Shown: positions 3,107-29,370 of the stretch, in pieces | Numbering within the stretch: the first letter of the stretch is position 1 | Layout of the letters: every line of letters starts with the position of its first letter | Source of the DNA: Pseudothermotoga hypogea DSM 11164 = NBRC 106472 | Lineage (GTDB): Bacteria; Thermotogota; Thermotogae; Thermotogales; DSM-5069 | Direction of reading: 5' to 3' | DNA: 64,000 nucleotides | NCBI RefSeq assembly: GCF_000816145.1 | Contig: NZ_CP007141.1 | Span: 1,054,001-1,118,000, forward strand | Notes under the pieces: model-generated | What the model saw: the letters and a program-made list of their open reading frames with translations, nothing else | Told to the model about the DNA's origin: nothing | Databases searched by the model: none | Made by a program: the position numbers and the translations under genes

Positions 3107-3310
3107 TCCTTAGCTCCCAATTTTATTCTAAAACAACCAGACCATATGGCATACATTATCATCGATCATTCAAAGCGTTCCATGGTGCGCACATCGTTGG
3201 GGCTTGGATAGAGAATTGATCTTTTCTTAATACCCTAAAAGAGATCGAGCATTTTGCTTCACCGTGGCTTGACTTACCAGAACGTGTGGATTAGTTCCGA
3301 CACGGACGTC

Positions 3311-3385: not shown

Positions 3386-4399
3386 GTTTCCATCCCTCAT
3401 AGGAGCCTTCTAAACTTTGGTTCCTGCAATAGCAAAGAGAAGAAGCACTGGAAGTTTCCATCCCTCATAGGAGCCTTCTAAACTCTTAAATTGTTTCGTG
3501 AGCTCAAAGTGTCTTGATCCCGAGTTTCCATCCCTCATAGGAGCCTTCTAAACGGGAATTTGACAGAGTGTGTTGGTGAAAGGAGGCGAATAGCATGTTG
3601 TTTCCATCCCTCATAGGAGCCTTCTAAACATCTTGAAGATCTAAAGGCGTGAGCGGAAACGCTCAGTTTCCATCCCTCATAGGAGCCTTCTAAACACGAG
3701 AAGGCGCAGTTACTTAAGGAGATTGAAAGACTGGTTTCCATCCCTCATAGGAGCCTTCTAAACTCCTTTTTCCTTATGGCGTGTACTATGGGATAGTGAA
3801 GAAGGGTTTCCATCCCTCATAGGAGCCTTCTAAACACGAGAAGGCGCAGTTACTTAAGGAGATTGAAAGACTGGTTTCCATCCCTCATAGGAGCCTTCTA
3901 AACATTTTCACAGCGAACGCGGTTCTTTGGGTATTTCTTCAGTTTCCATCCCTCATAGGAGCCTTCTAAACTCCCGAGTCCTATTATGACGTTGTTTTGT
4001 GCCATGAGTTTCCATCCCTCATAGGAGCCTTCTAAACGCGTTTGAAATCGCCATGTTGTTCGCCAAACTCGGCATGAACTTGTTTCCATCCCTCATAGGA
4101 GCCTTCTAAACTTTTAAATGCACGGTTGAAAACATAGTTCATACTGATGTTTCCATCCCTCATAGGAGCCTTCTAAACGCGGAGGTATGATGAGAGTACG
4201 AGAGATTCAGGATTGGATGTTTCCATCCCTCATAGGAGCCTTCTAAACGGGAATTTGACAGAGTGTGTTGGTGAAAGGAGGCGAATAGCATGTTGTTTCC
4301 ATCCCTCATAGGAGCCTTCTAAACAAGAACTTGCAAGAAAAAAGAACTACGATCTAAATTGCATGTTGCGTTTCCATCCCTCATAGGAGCCTTCTAAAC
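3386..4399 (-). CRISPR. CRISPR array 1: 15 perfect repeats, 14 spacers
   Basis: Repeats of 30 bases begin at 3386, 3454, 3524, 3600, 3666, 3734, 3806, 3874, 3942, 4008, 4082, 4149, 4219, 4295 and 4370. On the plus strand each reads GTTTCCATCCCTCATAGGA then GCCTTCTAAAC. Read on the minus strand they end in GATGGAAAC, the usual 5' handle of type III crRNAs, so transcription should run right to left from a leader at 4400-4674. Spacers are 36-46 bases. Two spacers occur twice: 3554-3599 equals 4249-4294, and 3696-3733 equals 3836-3873. Short open frames across the array encode a repeated LEGSYEGWK peptide and are not genes. Confidence 0.99.
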
Positions 4400-4674
4400 C
4401 CGTGGAAGTGGCTTTATTATTAAGACGGCACTTTTTGAGTCGAGACGATGTTACATTCGACCTTTTTGGAAGTGCCCTTCTGTTGAAGCTTTTCGAAAAT
4501 GGCACTTCTACTGAGTCTCTCATTTTTTGAGGCACAAGTGGGTGGTTCATATGAACGTTACAATACCTGTTTTTAGAATAGGCTTCAGATGAAGCTTTTG
4601 GAAATGGGTAAACATCAGATTTAATTGTCAAAGACCACTGAAAAGTTTTAGTAACAGTGATCAAGAAATAGCAA
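4400..4674 (-). promoter_or_regulatory. Leader of CRISPR array 1
   Basis: These 275 bases between array 1 and the CARF gene hold no gene. They align with the leader of array 2 (19605-19880). Shared blocks are AGTGGCT beside the first repeat, GACGATGTTACATT near 4444, GTTACAAT near 4556, and a 28-base block at 4608-4635 matching 19813-19840. On the minus strand that last block starts with TTGACA, a good -35 element, followed by an A/T-rich TAAATCTG stretch, so it is the best candidate for the array promoter. The repeat-adjacent conserved sequence is where Cas1-Cas2 would be expected to anchor new spacers. Confidence 0.75.
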
Positions 4675-6102
4675 TCACCATTTAAAAAGGTCGAGCCCTG
4701 CTTTCTCGAAGCACATGTCGATGCTTGGATCCAAGCGAAGTTCTGCCCTGATCTCGAGATCTTTAAGGAGTTTTCTGGCGCATTCTTTGATGTATTCCAC
4801 CTGTTTTTCGTTCGGAAAATCGAATCCGTGTATCAACAGAGAAGAATTTCTCGATTGGAGTGCCAATGACAGTGCTTTCAACCTTTTCTGATCGAAAATC
4901 CCTTGAACACAACTGTCTTTTTTCACGATCAAAAGGATTGCCATCCCGAACAAACCGAGTTTGTCGTGCATCTCCACCTGGTCTTCCGGCTTCTGAAGTA
5001 TCTTCGACATCTCTCTTCTAATCGCAATCTTATCTTCGTCAGTTAAGGGCATGTCGGGTGTCAAATTGTACAGGCTGAGCCTTTCTTGCAGGAGTAGCTC
5101 CAGAGCACGGTAAGCGCACAGAGCTGTCAGTATGGTTTCTCCATGCATTTCATGTTTCTCGCTCTTTTTCAACAGCGTCTTCGCCAGTGCAAAAACACCG
5201 AATTTATTCCGGGTGTAGTCTTTCTCTTCAAGAAATCTCTTGATGGCTTCGAGGATTTTGCTTTGAGTTTCAAAGAATCCACGAGATTTTCCAAGCGGGT
5301 GGTTCAACCACGTGTCTGTTTGAAGTTCTTCCACGAGCTTTCTGGATTTCTCGAAAGCTGTTTCTATGTCCAGTGAATACCAGGCGTGATACATCACGCA
5401 AATGTCAGCTAAGACGTTGTATCTGTTATCTTTGGTTTTCTTTGCTGTCTCTCGGAAGTACCTCTGCGCTTCGTAAAATTCTCCCTTCGAGTAATGTTCC
5501 AGGGCGAAGAACGCATCCACATCCCCGAGCACTTCGTGGGGGGAAGGCAAGATGACAAGCTTCTCACTCCCTGCCACTGGACGTCTGAGCTCTTCGTCGT
5601 ATTCTTCGTTGTCCACGTACACCACTCTTATGTTCGGAAAGAATCTTCTGAAAAAGAATCCTCCGCTCGCCATTCCGGCGCTCATGGCCTTGGTACCGCC
5701 GGTCACGTCCAGAGCCACGGCTTTTCCAATGTTTCTTTCCACCACTTCTTTGATCCTTTTGTATATGGTCACAACATCGTTTTTTTCAATCTCAATGGGG
5801 TAAAGTTCTACTCCAACGTCTCTTCTGATCTGCTCCAGGTACTTTCTCGTCTCGGGTGTGTGGATTACGTAGACCTCACTGGATCTGGTTCCCAAGATCG
5901 CAAGTGTTGTCGCCTCTGGGCTGGTGCCAAGAGTGTGAATGGAAACATCAAACTGGAACTTTTGTGGTTCAACAACAGGCGATTTTTTCCAGGAATCCAG
6001 CAGTATAGGCCAGACCATTTGTTGGTAGAGTGTCCGCGGATCCTGTCCAGCCTTAACTTTTTCCTTGTATTCCTGCCAAAGTTTCCCAAGCCGCTCGTTC
6101 AT
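4675..6102 (-). CDS. CARF-HEPN ribonuclease (Csm6/Csx1-like, TIGR02710-type)
   Basis: A 475-residue predicted cyclic-oligoadenylate-activated RNase. The CARF domain (about residues 50-190) carries LDVTGGTKAM at 131-140, the ligand-binding signature of this family, plus IHTLGTSPEA at 55-64. The C-terminal half is helical and holds an R-X6-H HEPN motif, RNSSLLIHG, with Arg418 and His425 as the likely catalytic pair. The start codon overlaps the stop of the upstream MazF-like/extension gene as ATGA, so the two are translationally coupled; it is the last gene of the minus-strand operon containing the sigma factor and ends at the leader of array 1. A frameshifted relic of the same gene's 3' end lies near array 2. 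CARF and HEPN calls rest on motifs; ligand ring size is unknown. Confidence 0.85.
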   Translation of the reverse strand: MNERLGKLWQEYKEKVKAGQDPRTLYQQMVWPILLDSWKKSPVVEPQKFQFDVSIHTLGTSPEATTLAILGTRSSEVYVIHTPETRKYLEQIRRDVGVELYPIEIEKNDVVTIYKRIKEVVERNIGKAVALDVTGGTKAMSAGMASGGFFFRRFFPNIRVVYVDNEEYDEELRRPVAGSEKLVILPSPHEVLGDVDAFFALEHYSKGEFYEAQRYFRETAKKTKDNRYNVLADICVMYHAWYSLDIETAFEKSRKLVEELQTDTWLNHPLGKSRGFFETQSKILEAIKRFLEEKDYTRNKFGVFALAKTLLKKSEKHEMHGETILTALCAYRALELLLQERLSLYNLTPDMPLTDEDKIAIRREMSKILQKPEDQVEMHDKLGLFGMAILLIVKKDSCVQGIFDQKRLKALSLALQSRNSSLLIHGFDFPNEKQVEYIKECARKLLKDLEIRAELRLDPSIDMCFEKAGLDLFKW

Positions 6103-6896
6103 TCTCTCTCCGCCCCCACGTCAACATTCAGAATGTTCTTAAGAGCTTCCACAGCGGGAGGATTCTCGAAAGTTATGAACAGTTCCGGCGGAATTCGCCC
6201 GCTGTAAATGGTTTTTCCGACGAGCGTTAGTTTCCCGGTTTTGGAAATCAGCTCGTCCGAGAAAATGATCCTTATCCCGGATTCGGTCCTGACAATGAGA
6301 AACTTTCCGAGATCGACGGCAGAACTTTGTGCCACCGGGACGTCGGGAAAGATCAATTCCAAATCTTTTTCCTCGAACAGACGTTTCAACTCGTCCCATC
6401 TCAGTGTGACGGTTTGTGATTCACTCTGTTCGATCTGGTTTAGGAACTCCAGAAACATGTCGTAGAGAATCTCTATCCGCTTGGTTTCGTACTCGAAGAA
6501 CTCTTTTCGAACGCCGGTCCAGTTCTCTTCACGAAGCTTTTGGTGATTCCCCACGACCTTCGTTAGGTCTTCTTGTTTCAGCTTACCAATCACTTCACAC
6601 GCTCTTTGTGTGCTGGGGGTCAAATAGAAATTGATGGGCGTGACCCTGAGCAGGTTCACGAGGTGTTCCACTCTCAGCAACAATCCATCCCCCGCGAGAA
6701 ACAGTTCTGGGCTGAGGAGGATACAGTTCTTGACGACGCCCTCCTCAGTCACAACACCGTAGATCGGACCGGTGTCACCCCAGACACAAATGACATCTCC
6801 CAAACGAATGGAAGTGGTCTCAGGACCTTCTTTCAAACTCTTTATCCTCTTCTGCGCTCTCTTGTAAAACTCGAGACGTCTTTTGAGATAACCCAC
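6099..6896 (-). CDS. MazF-fold protein with C-terminal extension; candidate CalpT-like anti-sigma factor
   Basis: A 265-residue protein. After a basic N-terminus, residues about 28-125 resemble the MazF/PemK SH3-like barrel: IRLGDVICVWGDTGPIYGVV, a VVKNCILLSPELF strand region, and the helix IGKLKQEDLTKVVGNHQKL, which matches the typical MazF C-terminal helix. The remaining 140 residues are an extension ending in a beta-rich LGKFLIVRTESGIRIIF region. It starts with GTG (GGAGG 8 bases upstream), 27 bases after the sigma-factor gene, and is coupled to the CARF-HEPN gene. In the known CalpL/CalpT/CalpS type III system a MazF-like protein of similar size holds a sigma factor inactive until a SAVED-Lon protease cleaves it; such a protease is encoded at 16941-18419. 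The function is therefore a reasoned proposal, not a proven homology. Confidence 0.55.
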   Translation of the reverse strand: MGYLKRRLEFYKRAQKRIKSLKEGPETTSIRLGDVICVWGDTGPIYGVVTEEGVVKNCILLSPELFLAGDGLLLRVEHLVNLLRVTPINFYLTPSTQRACEVIGKLKQEDLTKVVGNHQKLREENWTGVRKEFFEYETKRIEILYDMFLEFLNQIEQSESQTVTLRWDELKRLFEEKDLELIFPDVPVAQSSAVDLGKFLIVRTESGIRIIFSDELISKTGKLTLVGKTIYSGRIPPELFITFENPPAVEALKNILNVDVGAERE

Positions 6897-6923
6897 GCAT
6901 CACGCCTCCATTCCAACTACTTT

Positions 6924-7610
6924 TCACCTATTTTGACGGATCTTTTCGCAGATTTCTGACATGTAAATTTCCACGATCCTGCTGAATTCCGCTTCTGTGA
7001 TACCGTTTTCCATCACGAAATCTCTAATCCTCTTGGCGAGCCTTTCGTGTGATTTGTACCTCGCTTGGACAGTCTTCCCAGATGCGAAGATATTCGTTTT
7101 TTCATCCGAAAAGAGTTTTTTGTAGAAAAAATCGCACAGATCTTTCTCTTTACCGCTAAAAAGGTTTCTCAGCGCCTCGAAGTTTTTCTCGGCAAGAATC
7201 TGTTCTAAGGGATCTCTTCGTGCTTCTTCTTCCAATTGGATAAAGTCGAGAAAAGTCGATTCTTCCGATTCTGAATCACTGATCGAATCCAAGGAAAGGA
7301 CTTTCTTCCGCTTTTTCGACCTCGCATAATCGTAGATTTTGTTCTCCACGGACTTCACCAAATAACCAGTCAGATTATCAATGTTCCTCGTCAAGATCTC
7401 AGATCTCTTCTCCCAGAATGCACCCAAAACATCTTGGAAAATCTCATCGACGGCGGATTTCTCGTTACCGAAGATCTTGAGAACGTTCTCTCGTCCGAGG
7501 ATGTCGACGAGATTGAAGGAAACGATCTCCCTCAACATCTTTTCCAAGGTTGGCGTCACCTTTCGGTCTTCGAGAAACTTGAGTATTTCACGATCCAATT
7601 CTTTTGACAC
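6924..7610 (-). CDS. Sigma-70-family (ECF-like) factor, candidate CalpS-like
   Basis: A 228-residue protein with an ECF-type sigma layout. Region 2 is seen in NLTGYLVKSVENKIYDYARS followed by a KKRKK cluster (about residues 90-115 from this start), the pattern of the core-binding and -10-recognition helices. Region 4 follows at about 150-215, with a helix-turn-helix around SGKTVQARYKSHERLAKRI. GTG at 7610 is chosen because GGAGTGA lies just upstream; a TTG at 7637 has no site. Either way the gene overlaps the 3' end of the preceding MazF-like gene (7588 onward). It is followed after 27 bases by the MazF-fold/extension gene. It should direct RNA polymerase to unknown promoters when released from its partner. 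Confidence 0.7.
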   Translation of the reverse strand: MSKELDREILKFLEDRKVTPTLEKMLREIVSFNLVDILGRENVLKIFGNEKSAVDEIFQDVLGAFWEKRSEILTRNIDNLTGYLVKSVENKIYDYARSKKRKKVLSLDSISDSESEESTFLDFIQLEEEARRDPLEQILAEKNFEALRNLFSGKEKDLCDFFYKKLFSDEKTNIFASGKTVQARYKSHERLAKRIRDFVMENGITEAEFSRIVEIYMSEICEKIRQNR

Positions 7611-8007
7611 ACTCTTCACTCCAGTTCTGTAGATCAAAAAAGCAACTCACCACGAACTTGATCCTTCCACACCTTCTCCACTCTTCCACCAAGAAGCTCG
7701 GAAATTCGAAAACGGATTTCGAATCAATGCACATTATGTAGTTCTCGTGCTTGAGGATCCTTTTCAAGTTGCCCAGCGGACAACACTCGACAACATTGAG
7801 CTGTAAGTTCGAATGAGGTTTTGTACTTAAAAAAGCGCACAAGTAGGTAGTCTCGTTCTTCTTTTGGACCAAGCCGGGCCGGCTGTTACGAACTCCCCAC
7901 TTGGACTCACTCAAGTATCTCGTTCCCAAGAACCTTCCCGCAGTTTTCGCCGGCTGGAAAAAGATCACCAGGTTCGATACAAACCGTCTTTCATGGAGCT
8001 TTTCCAT
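7588..8007 (-). CDS. Small MazF/PemK-like protein
   Basis: A 139-residue protein, first gene of the sigma-factor operon, with ATG preceded by GGGGAGA at 7 bases. It shows the order of elements expected in a MazF/PemK barrel: a first strand NLVIFFQPA, then SRPGLVQKK (compare RPALV in MazF), YLCAFLSTKP (compare the plTs strand), a CIDSKSVFEFPSFL strand and a final CGRIKF turn. No conserved catalytic Arg/Ser-Thr pair can be assigned with confidence, so it may be a toxin, or a protein-binding barrel. Its 3' end overlaps the sigma-factor gene by about 23 bases. Together with the larger MazF-fold protein downstream it gives two such folds flanking one sigma factor. Fold assignment is by pattern only. 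Confidence 0.5.
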   Translation of the reverse strand: MEKLHERRFVSNLVIFFQPAKTAGRFLGTRYLSESKWGVRNSRPGLVQKKNETTYLCAFLSTKPHSNLQLNVVECCPLGNLKRILKHENYIMCIDSKSVFEFPSFLVEEWRRCGRIKFVVSCFFDLQNWSEECVKRIGS

Positions 8008-16940: not shown

Positions 16941-18419
16941 TCAACGAACGAGACCCCCTTGATTCGACAAAACCGTTTGAGATAACTGTTCTATTCGAAA
17001 AATCGGAACATATCTCGATGAGGCCTGATCGTATTGGTAAACAAAACCGGACGCGTAGTCACCGAATGCGACCCCAAAACCGAAGGCGATCGGTACAGGG
17101 CAGCTCAAAAAGAAAGACGCGCCACGATAGGCGCGTCTTCTTTTGACGATCTGCGTGACCGAGAAGAGTTCGCAAACATACTCGGTCCAATCACCGATCT
17201 TCAACATGCCAGGTTGTTTCGAACGTACGTACGCAATGAACACGTCTCTGTTCTTCAAAAACTCCCTCACCTGTGGCAGTGGATCGTGCGAGGCTAAATG
17301 TATCACGAACGCAGCTTCTTCACCATCACCAAGCAATTCGTACTCCAAAAGCTCAAGTTCCTCTTCTCTTTTCAAAGCCTTGATCTTCCTCAGCTTCTCT
17401 GGGCCGGTGAGATCCAACACCAAGTGATACCCACCTTGGTAATGGTACACAGCGATCCTTCTCTTCGCACCCACCGCAATGCCGAGCGCCATCGCAAAAG
17501 ATGCTGGCCCGTTGATCGCCAAGTGTGGAACTCCACCCGACTGAAACACCACTTGCAGTGTCTCGAAAGCTCTTCTCAACTCCGAAGCGTACTCATTTTC
17601 CTGTAACATGTGCCTTCGATGGAACATCTCGACTCTGTAGATCTTTCTGTAAAGCTCCAAACTCTTGCTGGGGAAAGACCTTTCCACGGTCTCTCTCAAC
17701 TCTTCCCAACCACGATCCTCTACACGTTCGCTGTGCTTGTAACACAGATACACTGGAACATGGTGTTCTCGAGTGTCGAAAAAATCAACCAAATCTCTGA
17801 AGTTTCGCACATCCAAGCCTGTCAACAGTTCTAACCCTTGCTCAGAACACACCCTCAGCTTTCTTTCCAAGCTTTCCGCTAAAGCGACGTTCCCATGCTC
17901 GTCCAAGCAACCCGAAAAAGCCACATGATTCGGTAAATTCTTCGACAACGCCCCTACTGCGACAGCGAGCATGAAGGAATCTCCACAGAAATCTCCATCG
18001 AACAGCACGGACAGTTCGAAACCGACGAGCCTTTCAATGATTCTGAGCTTCGGTGTGTGCTCCGTTAAGTTGCAGAACTCTAAGTTCGAGTTGAAGACCA
18101 AAGCTCGTCGCACATCGCTCGATTCTCCACCCACCACTGGAAACTTCACTTCTTTATGGTCAGACAAAACCACGCGCATGGACTGCTCGAAGCTCAGCGA
18201 ATACTCCTTGGAGAGTAGGAGGGCCGCATTGGCGTGATCTCTATTTTCCAAGAAAAGTTTGAACACCTCGTAGAAGATCAACTTCCTGTTGGGCTGGTCC
18301 TTGGGAAGGAGCTCGAAGTCCTTCAAAAGCTTTTCTCTTGACAAAACCCTCCTTCTTACGAATCGAAGGTACTCGTACGGATCAGTCGCGAGAAAAAAAG
18401 AATGATGGTAGTTATCCAT
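16941..18419 (-). CDS. calpL: SAVED-Lon protease (CalpL-like cyclic-nucleotide-activated effector)
   Basis: A 492-residue protein heading the III-A operon. Residues about 85-240 match the Lon proteolytic domain: CGDSFMLAVAVGALS holds the nucleophile (Ser148), VAFSGCLDEHGNVALAESL precedes Lys187 in ERKLRV, giving the Ser-Lys dyad with 39 residues between them, close to Lon. The C-terminal part (about 290-490) fits a SAVED sensor: HLAINGPASFAMALGIAVGA, RRIAVYHYQGGYHLVLDL. This is the layout of CalpL, which on binding cyclic tetra-adenylate cleaves a MazF-like anti-sigma factor. ATG at 18419 follows GGGGGGA; an ATG at 18434 is less well placed. A 10-bp terminator-like hairpin lies inside the gene at 17114-17139. 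Substrate here is inferred to be one of the MazF-like proteins at 6099-8007. Confidence 0.85.
   Translation of the reverse strand: MDNYHHSFFLATDPYEYLRFVRRRVLSREKLLKDFELLPKDQPNRKLIFYEVFKLFLENRDHANAALLLSKEYSLSFEQSMRVVLSDHKEVKFPVVGGESSDVRRALVFNSNLEFCNLTEHTPKLRIIERLVGFELSVLFDGDFCGDSFMLAVAVGALSKNLPNHVAFSGCLDEHGNVALAESLERKLRVCSEQGLELLTGLDVRNFRDLVDFFDTREHHVPVYLCYKHSERVEDRGWEELRETVERSFPSKSLELYRKIYRVEMFHRRHMLQENEYASELRRAFETLQVVFQSGGVPHLAINGPASFAMALGIAVGAKRRIAVYHYQGGYHLVLDLTGPEKLRKIKALKREEELELLEYELLGDGEEAAFVIHLASHDPLPQVREFLKNRDVFIAYVRSKQPGMLKIGDWTEYVCELFSVTQIVKRRRAYRGASFFLSCPVPIAFGFGVAFGDYASGFVYQYDQASSRYVPIFRIEQLSQTVLSNQGGLVR
17114..17139 (-). terminator. Terminator-like hairpin inside the SAVED-Lon gene
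   Basis: On the coding strand AAGACGCGCC, loop TATCGT, GGCGCGTCTT forms a perfect 10-bp stem followed by TCTTTTTG, the shape of an intrinsic terminator. On the other strand the stem is followed by CTTTTG. It lies about 1.3 kb into the gene, before its last 66 codons. It could reduce transcription into cas1-cas10 or be coincidental codon choice around a KRRRAYRG peptide. Confidence 0.45.
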
Positions 18420-18722
18420 CACGTCCCCCCACATCCCAGTACTTCAATAGAATTATAACACTTCTTTGCAAATTCTCGCATCGAAGTCTCATCACAGAAA
18501 ACAGAACGTTCAAAGCCTCTGTCCGCGAGACGACGATCTTCGATCCGACCGGCGGGTCTCGATCCCTCAGGGAAGGATCCGATTTGGACAACTTCCGCCC
18601 CTATCATCAGTTTTCATTCTCTCGAGAAAAACTTCATTCAGGTCGAAGAGATTCGCGGTTTGAACTCGGAGGCACCTTCCACGTCCCATCCATTTCAGGA
18701 AAGATCTCCATTCGGACCGATG
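18420..18722 (-). promoter_or_regulatory. Upstream region of the III-A operon with extended -10 promoter
   Basis: No intact gene is seen here. On the minus strand TGTTATAAT at 18452-18460 is an extended -10 element (TG, one base, then TATAAT at 18452-18457), 33 bases before the SAVED-Lon start; no convincing -35 is present, as allowed for extended -10 promoters. The rest (18470-18720) has short open frames in several phases and may be decayed sequence, but I cannot assign it to a family. Confidence 0.6.
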
Positions 18723-18790: not shown

Positions 18791-19604
18791 GTTTCCATCC
18801 CTCATAGGACCTCTCTAAACCGGCAACGGCAATGGCTCATACAACAGACCCGCAGAAAATAAGTTTCCATCCCTCATAGGACCTCTCTAAACCGTAACAT
18901 TGTATGCGTATTAGACAAAGGAGGCACAGAAGGTGTTTCCATCCCTCATAGGACCTCTCTAAACGCCGCTTTTTCGGCTGGCACTTGCTCGACGTTGAAA
19001 CTGAACGTTTCCATCCCTCATAGGACCTCTCTAAACCGTAACATTGTATGCGTATTAGACAAAGGAGGCACAGAAGGTGTTTCCATCCCTCATAGGACCT
19101 CTCTAAACGCCGCTTTTTCGGCTGGCACTTGCTCGACGTTGAAACTGAACGTTTCCATCCCTCATAGGACCTCTCTAAACTGTGGCTGGAAGAGAATCGA
19201 AGTGGGATAAGATAGACGAGCTTTGTTTCCATCCCTCATAGGACCTCTCTAAACATGGAGTATGGACGGGTGAGCGAAACGCTCACCCGTTTGTTTCCAT
19301 CCCTCATAGGACCTCTCTAAACTGGTACCATTGGCGTATTTCATTGACCCGATAGAGTTTCCATCCCTCATAGGACCTCTCTAAACAGGAATATTTCAGC
19401 TGGCTGATAGCTATGTTTTTCAACACCGAGATGTTTCCATCCCTCATAGGACCTCTCTAAACCTTCGATTATTTCAAAAGACTATGTGTTCGACTCTGCA
19501 AATCTGGTTTCCATCCCTCATAGGACCTCTCTAAACTGCCAGTTGTGCGTGTCGAAAACGCCGTTCAAACACTCGTTTCCATCCCTCATAGGACCTCTCT
19601 AAAC
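18791..19604 (-). CRISPR. CRISPR array 2: 12 perfect repeats, 11 spacers
   Basis: Repeats of 30 bases start at 18791, 18863, 18935, 19007, 19079, 19151, 19225, 19293, 19357, 19433, 19507 and 19575. The plus strand reads GTTTCCATCCCTCATAGGA then CCTCTCTAAAC; it differs from array 1 at three positions in the part away from the crRNA handle. Spacers are 34-46 bases. Two adjacent spacers are duplicated as a block: 18893-18934 plus 18965-19006 recur at 19037-19078 plus 19109-19150. The spacer at 19255-19292 contains a perfect 11-bp hairpin. The leader is on the right (19605-19880), so transcription runs leftward. Confidence 0.99.
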
Positions 19605-19880
19605 CCCGTAGAAGTGGCTCTATTACTGACAAAGCAGTTTGTTGCAAAGGACGATGTTACATTGGACGTTTCGAGAAGGACCCTTGTAATGAGAACTTTC
19701 GAAAAGGCATGTTTTGGGGATCCCCCCTCTGTGAGACAGGAAAAGGATGAGTTCACACGAAAGTTACAATCACATATTCTAAAGCAGGCTCTAAAAGAAC
19801 TGTTCAGAATTTGGTAAATCACAGATTTAGTTGTCAAAGATCAAGTTAAAATAAAGGTAATAACGATCATTAAGACGTCA
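19605..19880 (-). promoter_or_regulatory. Leader of CRISPR array 2
   Basis: It is homologous along its length to the leader of array 1 but diverged. Conserved pieces are AGTGGCTCTATTA beside the repeat, GACGATGTTACATT near 19660, GTTACAATCA near 19764, and the 28-base block at 19813-19840 that on the minus strand starts TTTGACAACTAAATCTG and probably holds the promoter. Open frames across it are not genes. Confidence 0.75.
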
Positions 19881-19889
19881 CAACATTTT

Positions 19890-20130
19890 GACATCCCTGC
19901 TATTTCTCTGCACTCTTCTCAAATGTATTTTATCCCTCTTTTCGGGGACTGAATCCATGTATCAAGACAGAAGAGCTTTTTGACTGGCACGGGTGCTAAG
20001 TTCCCCAGCCTTGTCCTATCGAAAATCTTTTGAGTGATCTTGTCCGCTTTGGTGATTGACAAGACTATCATCTCGAATAGAACGATTTTCTCGTGTATCT
20101 CCTCTTCGCCGTCCGAGTTTCAGGAAACGG
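19890..20130 (-). pseudogene. Decayed 3' end of a CARF-HEPN gene
   Basis: Translated on the minus strand, 19919-20110 gives EEIHEKIVLFEMIVLSITKA then QKIFDRTRLGN, matching VEMHDKLGLFGMAILLIVKK and QGIFDQKRLKA of the intact CARF-HEPN protein encoded at 4675-6102. A frameshift then occurs: the next frame reads SKSSSVLIHGF, matching the HEPN motif SRNSSLLIHGF with Arg replaced by Lys, and ends at an early stop. Another stop lies just upstream. The rest of the gene is missing. As with the intact gene, it sits directly beside an array leader, so the whole CARF-leader-array unit was once duplicated. Confidence 0.8.
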
Positions 20131-20139
20131 ACGTCGTTA

Positions 20140-20440
20140 GAAACTCGCCAAAAAACGTTTTGAGGGGGCGATTCGTTCCCTCCAGTTTCAGCCCTGTTCG
20201 CAAAGAGAAAGATCCTATTCTTCCCGTCGTCAAACACCACGAACGATTTTCCCACCAAAACTGGGACCTCAAAGGATTCTCTGTGCGTTTTCACCACTCC
20301 CTGCTTCGTTTCGAGAGCATCACACCAGCTTCTTCTCGAACCCTCGCGTTCCCTGTACATCCAGACTTTCGCTTGGCCCTAGGGTCATCCGTGCCCCAAT
20401 TTGCCTCTTTGCCTCGGTAAATGAGCCGTCCCGTCGCCTC
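20140..20440 (-). pseudogene. Gene remnant, possibly from the MazF-fold/extension gene
   Basis: On the minus strand 20160-20330 encodes VPVLVGKSFVVFDDGKNRIF, weakly resembling VDLGKFLIVRTESGIRIIF from the C-terminal extension of the protein at 6099-6896. The order (this remnant, then the CARF remnant, then the leader) is the same as in the intact operon, which supports the match, but identity is low and no complete frame remains. It could instead be an unrelated small gene of 114 codons with an ATG at 20360. Confidence 0.35.
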
Positions 20441-20874
20441 ACCATGAGAAGTTGCATATCTTTTCTAAAGCATTTCGAGCAACTGTTTTTCGGAGATGGT
20501 TTCTTTGATTTGAACCAAATCCTGTCTGAGTTCTTCGGTCAAAGTCAACACCTCCTCGAAAGAAGGGTGGACGGTGGTCCACCCGAAGGTTGAAAGTACT
20601 TGAAGGAACGAACTCTTTTCTCTTTGTTCGTCGAGTCGATCGTCTCACTTTTCAAAGACCACTGTGACGTTCCACGTATCTACAACGATCTTCACCCATC
20701 GCTTTGGACACAGTTGAAAGCAAATGTCACATCCACCTATATGGTTTTGTCGAAGTGAGTCACCGCTTCGTCGAGCCGACCCAGTGTTGGGGCAAAGCTC
20801 GACGCGTTTCGGTTCATAACCATTCTGAAACCTTTTCGTTGCAACATCAACTTCAATATATCACAAAAAATAAA
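20441..20874. other. Non-coding stretch after cmr6 with a short broken frame
   Basis: No intact gene is seen. On the minus strand a TTG at about 20547 follows GAGGAGGTG and opens a 25-codon frame (starting MTEELRQDLVQIKETI) that ends in TAG near 20470; it looks like the 5' end of a lost gene. A hairpin resembling the cmr6 terminator lies at 20565-20584. The remainder is short frames without recognisable similarity. Confidence 0.4.
20565..20584 (-). terminator. Hairpin related to the cmr6 terminator
   Basis: GGGTGGAC, loop GGTG, GTCCACCC; on the minus strand it is followed by TTCTTTCG, a weak U tract. The stem is the same as the hairpins at 20875-20893 and 29351-29370, including a CAACCT-type flank on the 5' side shared with the latter. 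Confidence 0.45.
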
Positions 20875-20893
20875 GGTGGACAGTCAGTCCACC
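20875..20893 (-). terminator. Intrinsic terminator of the III-B operon, overlapping the cmr6 stop
   Basis: On the minus strand GGTGGAC, loop TGACT, GTCCACC is followed by TTTATTTTTTG. The stem includes the last codons and stop of cmr6, so the operon ends compactly and little read-through into the relic region and array 2 leader is expected. Confidence 0.75.
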
Positions 20894-21645
20894 CGAAGAT
20901 CGAAACGATTCGAAGGATCTTCACGCACCAATTTCGGCACATCTAACGGTTCGAACCTACCGTAACCGTAGTTCGTCTTCGCACCCAAGCCGTGCCATTT
21001 CAACATTTCGATGAAATGTTTTTGCAACTCTGTTTTCTCTTCAACACTCAATCCTCCTTCTTCTATCACCGTGAACCTGAACCTTCCCCCTTCGACAACG
21101 ATGTACACAACTGGCACGGGGTTGTACCAATCGTTCGGAGGAGGTGATTCCCTCGAGTAGTACGGGACAAAGTGGTTGTTGACAATGTCGAGGGAGAAAG
21201 TGACATTTTCAACAGGTATGGCGTCCAAAAAGACCAATCGACCTTGGATGTGGTCGTCTCCAGACACATCTTCTCCAAAGAGATCCTTGATCTTCTTTTT
21301 GTCATAACCTGCTATTTCCCTCAGATACATCGAAAAACAGCCTTTCAAGCTGCTGCTCGGAATGATTGGAAAACCGTAGTTCCTCGAAAAAGTCATCCCC
21401 ACTTCAATGATCGAAGCGTTCCCCACCCCCACCAGTAGTCGACCCTTCAATCTCATCACCACGTCGAAAACCACGTTGGTCCTGCGCAGGAGTTCGTCTC
21501 TCCTTTGGTTCGCTTCCATTATGAAATCTTTCGTTTTGATCTCTTGCACTTTCTTGAGCATTTCAAACGGCAGGTTTGGACTGTTCACGTTGAGCGATCT
21601 GAAAGCCAGTTTGTTCCAGAACAAACTCAGGTTCTCTGGGCTCAC
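20884..21645 (-). CDS. cmr6: Cmr6, RAMP subunit of the III-B complex
   Basis: A 253-residue Cmr6, the subunit that caps the Cmr filament at the crRNA 3' side. Diagnostic stretches are LLVGVGNASIIEVGMTFSRN, PSSSLKGCFSMYLRE, the NPVPVVYIVVEGG strand and the C-terminal glycine loop WHGLGAKTNYGYGRF. It starts with GTG after AAAGGAGTGA and lies 6 bases after cmr5. A terminator overlaps its stop. Confidence 0.93.
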   Translation of the reverse strand: MSPENLSLFWNKLAFRSLNVNSPNLPFEMLKKVQEIKTKDFIMEANQRRDELLRRTNVVFDVVMRLKGRLLVGVGNASIIEVGMTFSRNYGFPIIPSSSLKGCFSMYLREIAGYDKKKIKDLFGEDVSGDDHIQGRLVFLDAIPVENVTFSLDIVNNHFVPYYSRESPPPNDWYNPVPVVYIVVEGGRFRFTVIEEGGLSVEEKTELQKHFIEMLKWHGLGAKTNYGYGRFEPLDVPKLVREDPSNRFDLRVD

Positions 21646-29350: not shown

Positions 29351-29370
29351 GGGTGGACTGGTGTCCACCC
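29351..29370 (-). terminator. Intrinsic terminator after the unknown gene pair
   Basis: On the minus strand GGGTGGAC, loop ACCA, GTCCACCC is followed by TTTTTTC. It ends the two-gene unit at 29390-30112 and isolates it from the csx1 promoter region. The stem is the same as in the hairpins at 20565 and 20875. Confidence 0.8.

Follow-up and report, generated by a model that had tools for sequence, protein, structure and literature searches.

The window analyzed here, a stretch of 64,000 nucleotides, corresponds to positions 1,054,001 to 1,118,000 of the complete 2.17-Mb genome of Pseudothermotoga hypogea and harbors a CRISPR island with two arrays, both of which are read on the minus strand. 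On this strand, the island starts with csx1 and the III-B genes cmr1-6, followed by a relic of an effector gene, leader 2, array 2, a gene for a CalpL-like SAVED-Lon protease, and cas1. Beyond cas1 lie a csm operon with cas10, cas6, two cas2 genes, a gene for a CalpS-like sigma factor, a CalpT-like gene, a CARF-HEPN effector gene, leader 1, and array 1. The gene names cmr, csm, and cas2 represent our reading of the open reading frames (ORFs) and of their matches in relatives. The literature found does not describe this locus in its titles and abstracts.

Array 1 (3386-4398, minus strand) consists of 15 repeats of GTTTAGAAGGCTCCTATGAGGGATGGAAAC, with a degenerate distal repeat near 3309, and array 2 (18791-19604, minus strand) of 12 repeats of GTTTAGAGAGGTCCTATGAGGGATGGAAAC, both given as read on the minus strand. 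Between the two repeat sequences, 3 of 30 positions differ. Some repeat-spacer units are duplicated exactly, both within array 1 (3524-3630 and 4219-4325; 3666-3763 and 3806-3903) and within array 2 (18863-19150, 144 bp in tandem).

The intact effector gene beside leader 1 (4675-6102, minus strand) encodes a Csx1/Csm6-type protein of 475 aa with a CARF sensor domain and a C-terminal HEPN domain, which matches PADLOC CARF1--CARF_HEPN PDLC01799 (E=6.4e-195) and NCBIfam TIGR02710 (9.2e-24). Its HEPN motif, of the form R-x(4-6)-H (PMC11229360), reads R418-NSSLLI-H425 and is invariant in the homologue of genome G066. On the same strand follow the genes for the CalpT-like anti-sigma homologue (6099-6896, 265 aa; PADLOC CRISPR-T 1.4e-21, Unk_02 2e-41) and for the CalpS-like sigma factor (6924-7637, 237 aa), which shows weak ECF sigma matches below curated cut-offs and adjoins CalpT as in relatives. 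The CalpL-like SAVED-Lon protease (497 aa; CRISPR-Lon 9.9e-124) is encoded at 16941-18434, also on the minus strand. In four relatives, a stand-alone ORF of about 80-110 aa, which matches the C-terminal domain of CalpT only, is located on the opposite strand between cas2 and cas6 (L092 10031-10270, L093 10868-11197, L095 10057-10386, L094 8911-9213); the L092 copy matches positions 187-249 of PADLOC Unk_02 (2.2e-08), and the window has no room for such an ORF. The CalpL-like gene of genome G008 (L009 11398-12935) is split into two overlapping frames, and the break shows an exact 33-bp direct repeat (68 bp from start to start), likely a recent disrupting duplication.

In a sensitive comparison at the DNA level between 4399-7000 and 19600-20950, leader 1 (4399-4663, minus strand) and leader 2 (19605-19869, minus strand) were matched from end to end in a single alignment with 178 of 268 identical positions (66%, E=1e-27), and the same homology was recovered in a genome-wide search. 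Leader 2 abuts the first repeat of its array and has the same orientation as leader 1. The sequence-only reading, which had described the two leaders as homologous throughout, thus holds over the full length of approximately 265 bp. Across 103 genomes of the phylum, no further leader gave a DNA match to these two. Array 2 probably still functions as an array and would be served by the shared Cas1, Cas2, and Cas6 proteins, because its leader retains two spaced GTTAC motifs common to other leaders of the phylum and its leader-proximal repeats are intact.

The motif GTTACATT is located at +51 in leader 1 and at +52 in leader 2, and GTTACAAT at +158 and +159, respectively. A comparison of the two leaders of the window with those of L066, L067, L077, L081, L092, L096, L102, L103, L125, L126, and L129 revealed motifs at a fixed distance from the last repeat, even in leaders that do not align between families. 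In several families, arrays have GTTAC(A) between +157 and +162, with L077 as an exception at +181, and GTTACATT lies between +50 and +52 in the leaders of the window and of the g5 genomes; none of 2000 shuffles of leader 1 placed GTTACATT at 45-56. The shared elements represent a candidate adaptation motif.

Past a short gap from the leaders, a second homologous block was detected in collinear arrangement, in which 4783-4988 aligns to 19911-20115 with 130 of 206 identical positions (63%, E=1e-14). This block belongs to a relic at 19876-20116 on the minus strand, a decayed copy of codons 373-451 (approximately) of the 475-aa CARF-HEPN gene, with order and orientation matching those of the array 1 unit. 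In a frameshift-aware protein alignment, residues 373-451 match 20113-19884 of the minus strand with a score of 124, compared with 41.2 +/- 6.5 for dinucleotide shuffles, none of which (0 of 60) reached 124. A protein search of the whole 2.17-Mb genome matched the relic with E=0.0018, and a two-sequence effector profile (Csm6-profile match) gives 17.5 bits on the relic versus at most 3.6 in 600 shuffled frames. The relic carries three frameshifts, one stop codon, and a deletion of about 66 bp near its 3' end. As the joint alignment shows, this deletion has removed the greater part of the 24 terminal codons from the effector copy. The HEPN region can be read as SKSSSVLIHGF, which aligns to SRNSSLLIHGF of the intact gene; in SKSSSVLIH, the motif arginine has been replaced by lysine, so that R-x(4-6)-H is lost. 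Since the upstream end of the relic lies at 20113-20116, the informative region is 19605-20116 and does not extend to 20440. In its central points, the sequence-only reading is therefore confirmed: a frameshifted 3' end of a CARF-HEPN gene lies next to leader 2, its HEPN motif is readable as proposed, and its order is that found beside array 1. Likeness by chance, or through shared leader function alone, would fit the short functional-looking motifs that both leaders carry at fixed positions; with the block of E=1e-14 outside the leader and a protein match that none of the shuffles attains, this explanation is already refuted by the alignment statistics and keeps practically no probability.

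Upstream of the relic, 767 bp without a recognizable gene (20117-20883) separate it from cmr6. A weak remnant of a "MazF-fold extension gene" had been suspected here. The gene meant is the CalpT homologue, and its 265-aa product scores 46 against this stretch (null 37.7 +/- 6.0; 5 of 60 shuffles as high), so that of the two proteins proposed to match upstream of leader 2, the 475-aa effector does so with residues 373-451 and the 265-aa protein stays within the shuffles. A profile of 13 CalpT proteins gave -2.0 bits, below the best shuffles, and a CalpT remnant was rejected by both approaches, as were remnants of CARF, CalpS, CalpL, csx1, and cmr6 in searches of the stretch. The CARF half, which is the better conserved half of the effector, has left no trace in 20117-20883 or elsewhere in the genome. 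A weak csx1 match (z 5.5) to 19870-20883 aligns residues 190-318 of csx1 and not its HEPN end, is absent from 20117-20883 alone, and is not believed. The ORFs of the 767 bp have no Pfam match and only one weak match in PADLOC (E=0.016); the stretch matches nothing in a phage database, and its matches elsewhere in the genome are limited to a shared hairpin and some short, weak ones. This terminator-like hairpin, GGTGGAC-N-GTCCACC, is present in three copies (20566-20583, 20875-20893, and 29352-29369; 0 expected by chance) that border the III-B (cmr-csx1) block, two near the 3' end of cmr6 and one just past csx1. It explains an apparent duplicate of the cmr6 3' end at 20539-20607 (72% over 71 bp to 20847-20917) better than cmr6 coding sequence does.

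Lasting function of the effector copy would lead us to expect differences mostly at third codon positions, but relic and intact gene differ at 34, 30, and 31 sites of codon positions 1, 2, and 3, respectively. Neutral decay of the intact sequence was simulated 150 times each at 34, 37, and 40% divergence, and the observed protein similarity was reached in 51, 17, and 5 of these runs, respectively. The remaining likeness at the protein level requires no period of selection, since neutral decay reproduces the score, and the relic looks as if it has decayed without protein-level constraint. The copy may nevertheless have passed through a period of constraint, since the simulations become unlikely at 40% divergence. 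Adding the G066 homologue as a third sequence placed the change in the relic alone at 18 sites and in the intact copy alone at 6, the imbalance that a pseudogene would be expected to show.

Among the 103 genomes of the phylum, only two, that of P. hypogea and G066, have a strong match to the effector family; around the effector of G066, the 20 kb that were read contain no array. Scans of genome contigs and viral contigs yielded no relatives of the effector. The junction of leader and effector has no DNA homologue in the other 102 genomes of the phylum, and the suggested look for an intact copy beside the second array in relatives ended without one in the family. The layout of the island is shared by G067, with array, leader, CARF/HEPN gene, CalpT, and CalpS and, further on, cas1, CalpL, and an array with a homologous leader. 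The leaders of its arrays A and B are homologous to each other (62% over 481 bp), and the effector slot beside CalpT holds a different CARF-HEPN protein (CARF2--CARF_HEPN_CARF). Unlike in the window, no effector fragment adjoins the second leader of G067. G068 has several arrays with homologous leaders, and its cmr operon begins approximately 1 kb past an array leader, with no effector relic between them at the leader tested. Leader duplication is thus ordinary in this group, as the leaders of G067 and G068 are homologous and the copies tested there have no effector fragment next to them; duplication carrying the effector end is particular to the genome studied here. The CARF-HEPN families of the G067, G068, and G069 effectors gave no signal as a source of the relic. 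G068 also shows the opposite situation (L093 7528-8166), in which the effector is intact and the array beside it is a remnant: an orphan CRISPR repeat, a degenerate repeat, and a leader with 89% identity to a second leader of that genome are located between CalpT and a CARF2-HEPN-CARF effector.

There is good support for a common origin of the two units, one that takes in the leader and the 3' end of the effector gene. We favour a partial duplication and consider it probable that array 2 arose when the leader end of a CARF-HEPN-leader-array unit was duplicated together with only the tail of the effector gene, which then decayed neutrally. Besides array and leader, the copied segment would have taken in approximately the final fifth to quarter of the adjacent effector gene. 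An effector fragment without start codon and CARF sensor would have been dead on arrival or very soon after, and substitutions, small indels, and the deletion of about 66 bp would represent its neutral decay. This extent and timing, which we infer, fit the lack of CARF and CalpT remnants, the equal distribution of differences over codon positions, and a conservation within that of neutral decay, for which reasons the partial duplication is preferred, and relatives with homologous leaders but no such fragment (arrays A and B of G067, leaders of G068) speak for it too; the 767 bp upstream of the relic are left without explanation by it.

The sequence-only reading had gone further and proposed that the effector operon, leader, and array were duplicated together and that the effector copy was then deleted internally, possibly when the III-B operon arrived. 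A duplication of leader and array with part of the effector gene stands. Duplication of a whole operon of CalpT and CARF-HEPN genes, the second effector of which once worked, is in our view unlikely: the relic does have the right order and orientation, and the hairpin copies around the cmr-csx1 block make a rearrangement at its border plausible, but upstream of the relic there is no CalpT or CalpS signal, a CARF remnant is missing, the fragment is free of codon-position bias, and the second array of G067, a relative with the same layout, has no effector relic. Nothing positively indicates that a second effector operon was ever functional here.

The relic has 31 of 74 residues in common with the intact copy, exactly as many as the intact effector and its G066 homologue, from another family, share over the same segment. 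This counts against the partial duplication, since it also suits a homologous CARF-HEPN-leader-array unit that was acquired separately, already diverged, and whose effector then decayed. The three differences between the repeats point the same way, as does the island itself: three same-genus assemblies were compared at the syntenic place, and the two that span it (G003 and G004) hold other genes there, so that the island was gained or lost within the genus and the arrival order of III-A and III-B is not readable from them. Separate acquisition deserves consideration but seems unlikely to us, as the two leaders are similar while none of the other leaders in 103 genomes of the phylum matches them at the DNA level, two acquisitions of an effector type known from 2 of 103 genomes are less economical, and the fast evolution of the relic inflates its distance. 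A still less probable, speculative reading regards effector, leader, and array as a cassette that duplicates and moves in these type III loci, with the relic as the footprint of a cassette that lost its effector; it would be in line with the finding that the slot next to CalpT is occupied by different CARF-HEPN families, CARF1-HEPN in the window and CARF2-HEPN-CARF in G067.

The relic provides direct physical evidence that two arrays of one type III island share their origin including a flanking effector gene, which goes beyond similar leaders kept by shared adaptation proteins, and it corrects the tempting over-reading of a second effector operon at work. The relic itself is ordinary genomic debris of routine genome decay; it makes no functional product, and there is no reason to assign a function to it.

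In comparison with known systems, the intact gene at 4675-6102 belongs to the Csx1/Csm6-type CARF-HEPN ribonucleases of type III CRISPR systems, and the relic is homologous to its HEPN end. In contrast to these ribonucleases, the relic has no CARF domain, no open frame (approximately codons 373-451 are all that is left, interrupted by three frameshifts and a stop), and a lysine for the HEPN arginine. Several CRISPR arrays whose homologous leaders flank a single cas module are likewise known, here from G067 and G068; the window differs from them by the effector fragment. The Calp system consists of the SAVED-Lon protease CalpL, the anti-sigma factor CalpT, and the sigma factor CalpS (PMC11417357). 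It differs from the present island in that the three genes are split here, CalpS and CalpT by the effector and CalpL after cas1, and array 2 has no Calp remnant beside it. As in the Calp system, there are matches to CalpT, in the gene upstream of the intact effector, and to CalpL, in the SAVED-Lon gene preceding array 2, and a sigma-like gene precedes that for CalpT. Membership of these genes is assigned by sequence, and cA4-activated cleavage of CalpT by the Lon protease, with release of CalpS, is predicted for them.
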